Under the pieces are notes generated by a model. It saw nothing but the letters and a program-made list of their open reading frames with translations, did no database searches and was not told the origin of the DNA. From Mesorhizobium australicum (GTDB taxonomy: Bacteria > Pseudomonadota > Alphaproteobacteria > Rhizobiales > Rhizobiaceae), in the NCBI RefSeq assembly GCF_900177325.1, contig NZ_FXBL01000004.1, forward strand, positions 1,054,001 to 1,118,000: 64,000 nt of DNA. The letters are read 5' to 3'. The first letter of the stretch is position 1. Every line of letters begins with the position of its first letter. The position numbers and the translations under genes were made by a program. Positions 31,620 to 33,141 of this stretch are shown here, in pieces.

Positions 31620-31716
31620 GGCGGCTCCCCTTCTCCCCGTTCACGGGGTCCGAAGGACGGGCGAGACAAGCGGCTCGCCCCGGCACAGGTGCCCGAAGGG
31701 CGGATGAGGGGCGGCA
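31620..31716. repeat. REP-like palindromic repeat on the 3' side of the IS110 transposase gene
   Basis: The stretch holds CCCCTTCTCCCCGTTCACGG, GTCC-GAAG-GGAC-like and GGGC-GAGACAAGCGGCTC-GCCC-like small palindromes, then GTGCCCGAAGGGCGGATGAG. Its outer ends (GGCGGCTCCCCTT and its near-complement GATGAGGGGCGGC) are inverted. This is the composition of dispersed rhizobial intergenic repeats. No gene is supported between 31613 and 31756. Confidence 0.5.
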
Positions 31717-31756
31717 CGAGCTTTCAAAGGCTGGGCACTGCCCCTCACCGCCGTCA

Positions 31757-32692
31757 TCAACTCTGCTGCATTTGAGCGTCCCTTAGCCTGGCATTGAGGG
31801 TCACGATGATCTTTCGCATGACAGCGGCGAGGGCGAGGATTGGCTTTTTTCCGGCGGCCAGCAGGCGTTTGTAGAAGTCCGCGAACTCGCCGCGTCCGCA
31901 GGCGGCCTGCATGGCGGGCATGTAGAGTATGGTTCGCACGGCCGGGCGGCCGCCGCGCATGCGTCGGTAGCCGACCTTCTTTCCGCTTTCGTTGGGATGC
32001 GGCGCCAGGCCTGCCAGCGCGGCGGCCTGCCTTCGGTCCATGGTGCCGAGTTCCGGCATCGCGGCGAGAAGGGCGGCGGCGGTGACTTGGCCGATGCCCG
32101 CCATGGCGGTGACGACGGCGCTCCTGTGCTTCAGCACCCCGCTGCGCATGAGCGTGCGGATTGCCTGCTCGACGCGCGCGATCTGTCGCTTCAGGACGGC
32201 CAGCACGGCTCGGAAGGTCGTGGCCAGTTCGGCTGCCCCGGGCGCCTTCGAGCGGTTCTGCTCGGCCACCTTCATAGCCACGAGGTCGTCGCGGCGGCGA
32301 ACCAGCGCCTTGAGCCTTTCCTGGCGGGGGTCGGCGGCCTGCCACAGGGCGAGGCTCGCCCAGCGCTCCAGGCCATAGGCGGCCAGCTCGCGCGCATCGA
32401 TGGCGTCGCTCTTGCCGAGCCGGCCACGCGAACGGATGAAGGCCTTGAGCTTGCGCGTGTCGGCGCGGTGTGCCGGCAGGTCGAGGCGCAGGCACTCGTC
32501 GAGCAGGACGGTCTCGTGGCCGCCGGTCGGCTCGCACACGGCGAAATCGGCGCGGCAGGCCCGCAGAAACCGGCGGATGGCGGGACGGCGGTTGTCGATG
32601 ACCTCGACGGTGCGGCCATCGGAGACGGCGATCGTCTCCTTGGCGACGTCGAAGCCCAGGCAGCGGCGGGGAAGGTGGTGCAGAAGGGCCAT
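31757..32692 (-). CDS. IS110 family transposase (DEDD recombinase)
   Basis: The 311-residue product has the two-domain IS110 layout. The N-terminal RuvC-like DEDD domain shows Asp in GFDVAKET, Glu in FAVCEPTGG, and the two Asp of KSDAIDARELA. The C-terminal Transposase_20 domain has GIGQVTAAALLAAMPELG and LAPHPNESGKKVGYRRMRGG, whose Ser in ESG is the expected catalytic serine. The gene seems intact. The start MALLHHLPRRCLGFDVAKE at 32692 is chosen by family length; the frame is open further up to 32812. Recent work showed that IS110 recombinases are guided by a bridge RNA from the non-coding end. Confidence 0.92.
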   Translation of the reverse strand: MALLHHLPRRCLGFDVAKETIAVSDGRTVEVIDNRRPAIRRFLRACRADFAVCEPTGGHETVLLDECLRLDLPAHRADTRKLKAFIRSRGRLGKSDAIDARELAAYGLERWASLALWQAADPRQERLKALVRRRDDLVAMKVAEQNRSKAPGAAELATTFRAVLAVLKRQIARVEQAIRTLMRSGVLKHRSAVVTAMAGIGQVTAAALLAAMPELGTMDRRQAAALAGLAPHPNESGKKVGYRRMRGGRPAVRTILYMPAMQAACGRGEFADFYKRLLAAGKKPILALAAVMRKIIVTLNARLRDAQMQQS

Positions 32693-32880
32693 GCTGATGC
32701 TATCCTCATCCAGGCTGGCTTGAGATTGTTTGCGGGCGTGGCGATCAGCGGCCCGATCAACTCTCCAAGCGATGGCGCGAGACGGCAGGAACCTTGATGA
32801 CGACGGGTGCAAACCCGATTCCGGGACGGTTGCCTGCCGCCGGAACTGCGGGCTGTCGAAGAGCCCGCAGTTCCACCCGT
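32693..32880 (-). ncRNA. Candidate bridge RNA region of the IS110 element
   Basis: The non-coding end upstream of the transposase start holds nested structure. A perfect 13-base-pair hairpin (32842-32854 with 32862-32874, loop of 7) stands at the outer end. Inside it GGCAGGAACC (32784-32793) pairs with GGTTGCCTGCC (32828-32838) with one bulged base, enclosing a 34-base loop that itself has CGGGT/ACCCG (32804-32808, 32813-32817). In IS110-group elements the bridge RNA is encoded in this end, opens with a 5' stem-loop and has two loops that read target and donor DNA. The order seen here fits, but transcription and exact ends are inferred. Confidence 0.4.
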
Positions 32881-32904
32881 ATTCTAGCCCGATTCAGACA
32901 AACA

Positions 32905-33053
32905 ATTCCGGGTCCGCGCAGCGGAGCCCGGAATCCAGCGCGCCAACGCCTGCGCGCTGCACTCATCTGCGCTCCGACGTGGTCGCGACAGTCGATGAAC
33001 TGCCTGCTTGCCCGGCGCTCTGGGTTCCGGGTTCCGCTGCGCGGCCCCGGAAT
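32905..33053. repeat. Paired palindromic repeats in inverted orientation
   Basis: Two palindromes of the same family, 32905-32934 (ATTCCGGGTCCG to CCCGGAAT) and 33025-33053 (TTCCGGGTTCCG to CCCCGGAAT), lie in opposite orientation about 90 bases apart. The stretch between has further matching parts (CCAGCGCG and GCGCTCTGG). The whole is a small non-coding repeat element of the kind common in rhizobial genomes. Nothing coding is seen from 32881 to 33141. Confidence 0.6.
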
Positions 33054-33141
33054 GACGGCGCGCGCGATTGTCCTCCCCGTGCGAGGGAAGGCCGATCTCA
33101 TATGGTAAGGCACTGCGAGAAGGGGCACGACAGGTGCACCT

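Follow-up and report, generated by a model that had tools for sequence, protein, structure and literature searches.

A candidate bridge RNA in the left end of an IS110-group element inserted in REP-like palindromes of Mesorhizobium australicum

Introduction

Does the non-coding end of an IS110-group element in the genome of Mesorhizobium australicum encode a bridge RNA? That IS110 elements target REPs has long been known (PMC1525189), and the principle of RNA-guided recombination has already been published; the element described here is a further example. The question arose from a first-pass annotation of the window, by which we mean the whole stretch of 64,000 nucleotides that was analysed. 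It had marked about 190 structured non-coding bases at 32693..32880, upstream of the recombinase gene, as a candidate bridge RNA. This stretch is indeed non-coding and structured, but the range stops short of a -10-like box and of the left terminus of the element (32881-32906).

Results

The features of the locus are collected in Table 1. Comparison within the genome revealed that the element is present in four copies, identical over 1151 bases each, with the same flanking hexamers in 4/4 copies and four filled left junctions. Because the element reads AT-TGTTTG...GAGTTG-AT and the unoccupied repeat reads CCCGGA-AT-GACGG, AT is the common core, and the ends placed in this way enclose the stretch in question, as the first-pass annotation required. 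The recombinase stop codon closes with the A of the right core, and the right end therefore has no non-coding bases. The same ending of the frame, CAGAGTTGA followed by T, is found in the window element, in 30 of the 33 relatives of the main comparison set (L051 and L073 have early stops and the stop of L068 comes shortly before) and in seven additional relatives. On the other side, 212 non-coding bases (32693-32904) lie between the recombinase frame and the left core, and these contain the match to the covariance model described below, which is the arrangement of an RNA in a long left end combined with a short right end. The IS1111 group, in which the RNA occupies a long right end, was rejected on the same grounds. 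None of the named IS emerged as the closest relative: matches were obtained to 2405 plasmid records, every one below 60% identity, the best of those listed at 37.7%.

Table 1. Features of the IS110-group element and its candidate bridge RNA (window coordinates)
Feature	Position	Strand	Basis or remark
IS110-group element, both AT core copies included	31756..32906	-	1151 bases; complete
IS110 recombinase, 311 aa	31757..32692	-	PF01548, PF02371; NF033542
Right core dinucleotide AT	31756..31757	-	comparison of copies
Left core dinucleotide AT	32905..32906	-	set against unoccupied repeat 33046-33058
Right target half GACGGC (flank)	31750..31755	-	comparison of copies
Left target half CCCGGA (flank)	32907..32912	-	comparison of copies
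Unoccupied REP-like target CCCGGAATGACGG beside the element	33046..33058	+	one of 22 exact genome sites
-10-like box TAGAAT	32881..32886	-	consensus match only
Candidate bridge RNA, covariance-model match	32717..32877	-	144.9 bits, E 7.3e-28; presumed transcript ends
5' stem-loop, 13 bp perfect	32842..32874	-	folding; 32862-32874 with 32842-32854
Target-binding stem and loop (predicted)	32781..32841	-	folding, covariation counts
Left target guide CCCGGAAU	32818..32825	-	same as left target half plus core
Right target guide CGUCGUCAU	32797..32805	-	CGUCAU pairs with ATGACG
Donor-binding stem and loop (predicted)	32718..32770	-	folding, covariation counts
Left donor guide AGAGUUGAU	32756..32764	-	same as the element's right end plus core
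Right donor guide CAAACAAU	32725..32732	-	complement of the element's left start ATTGTTTG

As for the target, the genome contains 22 exact unoccupied CCCGGAATGACGG sites, compared with 0 for the pattern read backwards, which served as a control. In 21 of these 22 sites a complementary arm lies at most 34 bases upstream, which identifies the target as the 3' arm of a REP-like palindrome. The left flank of the element (32907-33058) is a composite in which two REP-like palindromes face opposite ways and which could give two target sites. In the right flank, a repeat of about 58 bases (31700-31757) recurs at four other places in the genome (C4:1989052, 3806505, 5386099 and 2076068) with 83-97% identity, and these recurrences adjoin REP-like sites.

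The recombinase scores 143.9 bits against NF033542 (cut-off 140) and aligns to IS621 (8wt6) over residues 77-296 with an E value of 1.3e-26 and about 97 bits. In this alignment, counted by hand, D96, D99 and S236 correspond to D102, D105 and S241 of IS621 (chain numbers are two higher), while D15 (GFDVAKE) and E54 (CEPTG), both outside the aligned region, were assigned by sequence motif. The role of the five catalytic residues in IS621 is described in PMC11208158. Hence the claim that the recombinase keeps its DEDD residues and catalytic serine holds, for three residues by alignment and for two by reading, and the protein shows the RuvC-like DEDD domain and the Tnp domain with catalytic Ser of the IS110 family, D15 and E54 by motif alone. 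A TIGR-Tas assignment was rejected, its NCBIfam model NF052498 giving 25.8 bits, below the cut-off of 100.

Folding of 203 nt of the left end gave -89.5 kcal/mol (z = -3.13), a value equalled by 1 of 200 shuffles and moderate when taken alone. In the predicted structure the perfect 13-bp hairpin is present, but it stands 5' of the second stem and not around it as the first-pass annotation had placed it. The second stem itself was described correctly: 32828-32841 pairs with 32781-32793 and encloses 34 bases (32794-32827), among them the small hairpin CGGGTTTGCACCCG. The proposed layout of a 5' stem-loop followed by target and donor loops likewise fits, but a third stem, carrying the predicted donor loop, had gone undescribed. 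We aligned 23 left ends including that of the window, and used 22 trimmed left ends without the window for the covariance model and the covariation counts. Run on the window, the model built from these 22 relatives matched the stretch in question at 144.9 bits, the next of five matches reaching 11.4, and in the whole genome, searched up to E = 1, it found precisely the four copies. Of 27 further loci, the model matched L125, L071 and L046 at E below 0.01 and none of the remaining 24, whose proteins are 31-38% identical, at E below 0.1. In the 22-sequence alignment 97.3% of 850 cells are paired, compared with 32-48% for slid structures, over which the counted structure is favoured by its derivation from the same alignment, and both sides have changed in 13 of the 39 pairs. 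Four of five covariation measures exceeded all 500 shuffles, and the fifth (further pair types) was reached by 81 of the 500. Changes on both sides, which the first-pass annotation had made a test of its reading, are present among the homologues chiefly in the 5' hairpin (6/8 modelled pairs), followed by the target stem (2/12) and the donor stem (1/10), with 1/2 and 3/4 in the small inner helices 3 and 6; in the donor stem, which is largely invariant, covariation carries little information. We consider the evidence for the predicted structure strong on account of covariation and the model match rather than of folding energy.

At the gathering threshold Rfam returned nothing for the bridge RNA stretch, and a relaxed match to an unrelated lncRNA family (7.8 bits against a gathering score of 55) was taken as chance. 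Elsewhere in the window lies an ordinary bacterial small SRP RNA (477-573; RF00169, 58.6 bits). In the Pleomorphomonas relative L071 (about 100 bases upstream of 1501-1392), the loop of the 5' hairpin seems to be split by about 100 extra bases, which, read by eye, carry inverted repeats of their own.

Both predicted loops match DNA at the places expected of guides. The first loop matches both target halves and the second both donor halves, that is, the joined ends of the element. For the right target guide, pairing extends over ten bases if one G-U is allowed and over 6 bases without it. In IS621 the 5' side of a loop pairs with the bottom strand and the 3' side with the top strand (PMC11208160), and the predicted guides of the window's RNA follow the same order and strand rule. 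Equally long matches anchored at the core arose by chance elsewhere in the window in 296/41694 cases for the left target guide, 84/41694 for the left donor guide and 295/41694 for the right donor guide; for the right target guide the count was 81/8338 with G-U and 3222/41694 without. Unanchored comparison with random 20-mers gave 270/4000 for the 8-base left target guide, 2262/4000 for the 6-base right target guide, 72 for the left donor and 272 for the right donor guide; this test is weak, and we therefore adopted the core-anchored and permutation tests.

For the permutation test 65 loci were entered, L010-L038, L123, L126 and L127 being excluded from the input. Fifteen were dropped, namely L046 and L071, which lack an intact left end, and 13 more distant loci lacking the donor-loop signature, which left 50 elements with a readable left end and 15 left guides. 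With the register of four of these 15 guides set by hand and with related elements not independent, left guides fitted their own sites at a mean of 4.39 of 5 outer positions, compared with 2.79 after permutation between guide groups; 0 of 20000 permutations reached the observed fit, the best giving 3.86. Matching pairs of left guide and site include GCGUAGGAU with GCGTAGGAT (L049), ACAGGAAU with ACAGGAAT (L124) and CCUAGGAU with CCTAGGAT (L073); misfits are L043, where CUAAGGAC stands with CCTAGGAT, and L120, with 2 of 5 in its register. The right guide is almost constant. Its fit to the own site exceeded that to other sites in 5/7 guides, clearly so for GCCTCAT alone (2.00 versus 0.93), and it changes clearly in L068/L125, where CCUCAU stands with ATGAGG; these two loci, taken from different collections, are probably one and the same element. 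Covariation of right guides with their targets is weak. On the loops, then, the first-pass expectation of complementarity to target and donor DNA was borne out, with left guides that track their targets among the relatives. In L051 (Pannonibacter carbonis), whose recombinase frame has the early stop, the left guide CTCCGGGAT is altered jointly with the target TCCGGGAT, and the left donor guide reads GAGTTGACG in place of GAGTTGAT.

In Pannonibacter sp. SL95, 18 related copies were found (L050, L052-L067, L069). Their right junctions are AT in 18/18, their left junctions GT in 13 and AT in 5, and the left guide ends in GGGGU in 18/18 copies. Exact unoccupied sites number 10 for CCCGGGGTGAC and 21 for CCCGGGATGAC. 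Against these stand 12 and 4 filled left junctions, counted in the CCCGGG form (Fisher p = 0.012), a count open to disturbance by missed copies or by filled sites with a right half other than TGAC. Sites that fit the guide seem to be preferred, and reading of the target core may here be uncoupled from reading of the donor core in nature, a proposal to which we give slightly less than even weight.

Joining the two ends of the element yields TTGATT-17 bases-TAGAAT, a promoter-like sequence by consensus match only, with the box ending 6 bases before the 5' hairpin. When the left ends of 22/22 distinct relatives were combined with the common right end, a promoter-like match with a spacing of 17-19 resulted, a count to which no chance rate is attached and in which the right end was set by rule, unseen in 6. 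A promoter spanning the joined ends has been published for IS621 (PMC11208160). As for the handshake guides, CA in the target loop fits donor TG, its C being invariant and its A nearly so in the alignment of 23 left ends. CU in the donor loop stands opposite target GA and does not fit in the four copies of the window element. Among the 50 elements, the donor-loop handshake is CC with GG, which fits, in 45/50, and GC with GA in one further element; the target-loop column of this tally is partly an artefact of the search pattern and was left out of use.

Discussion

We conclude that the stretch is very probably a bridge RNA gene, belonging to an IS110-group element that is intact and has spread recently. 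At the level of sequence, the support covers the ends, the core, the conserved structure, the four guide matches and the tracking of targets by left guides in relatives, and the bridge RNA interpretation of the first-pass annotation gains from covariation, element ends and guide matches alike. By analogy with IS621, the excised circle would bring the right end up to the left end at the AT core, thereby making a promoter from which a transcript would start at the 13-bp hairpin and be bound by the recombinase. Pairing of the first loop would involve the two strands of the REP-like palindrome's 3' arm (CCCGGA-AT-GACG), and that of the second loop the junction of the ends (AGAGTTG-AT-TGTTTG); strand exchange, again as in IS621, would take place beside the core.

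Three other explanations deserve weighing. The element might be a dead remnant whose RNA and recombinase look intact and which is now immobile. In its favour, the assembly gave 0 matches to the joined circle junction, the presence of which there is not expected; however, four full-length identical copies at four places point to recent spread, and the guides still fit 22 unoccupied sites, which makes a remnant improbable. Still less probable is a structured leader that acts as a cis regulator of the recombinase gene, attenuator-like, and guides nothing. Such a role would suit a strongly folding leader directly upstream of the start codon, but a regulator does not predict matches of four distinct segments to target and donor DNA up to the core, nor left guides that shift with the target in relatives. 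Finally, the flanks are rich in REP-like repeats, which have CCCGGAAT in common with the RNA, as they might if the stretch were itself a REP-like palindrome or a set of chance hairpins unconnected with the element. We regard this as hardly credible, for the stretch lies inside the element in 4/4 copies and is kept, with compensatory changes, in relatives with differing REPs.

Read as a bridge RNA gene, the stretch has its closest described counterpart in IS621 (PMC11208160, PMC11208158). According to these accounts, IS621 shares with the window element an RNA in the left end, a 5' stem-loop followed by two stem-loops with internal loops, the catalytic residues and REP targets; the promoter across the joined ends of IS621 would correspond to the promoter-like sequence here. 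The core of IS621 is CT whereas that of the window element is AT, and IS621 is functional with GT, AT and TT cores too (PMC11208158). Further differences from IS621 as described there are the stop codon that overlaps the core at a right end free of non-coding bases, a recombinase similarity confined to the aligned residues, and the misfit of the donor-loop handshake pair, handshake guides being described for IS621. Judged by their descriptions, two other groups are similar: the seekRNAs described for IS1111 elements and, with ISEc21, for IS110 (PMC11187229), where an RNA from the upstream non-coding region has pieces that match both target strands, and the IS110-family elements ISRm19, ISPpu9, ISPpu10 and ISPa11, which likewise insert in REPs, in work that predates bridge RNAs (PMC1525189). 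For ISRm19 of Sinorhizobium meliloti, the table of that paper places 4/4 copies in REPs. As far as the published bridge RNAs are described in PMC11208160 and PMC11208158, the window RNA is in agreement with them and has no feature outside the published kind. Our literature search found no title or abstract on the RNA of this clade; the supplements of PMC11208160 predict thousands of IS110 RNAs and may include this one or its relatives.

The locus provides a complete and testable pair of recombinase and candidate bridge RNA, with ends, core and guides defined, and it comes from a clade in the Alphaproteobacteria in which the core is AT and a right-end spacer is missing. Among its relatives, 15 left guides occur together with the insertion sites that belong to them, a natural series from which it can be learned what changes of guide and core evolution tolerates.
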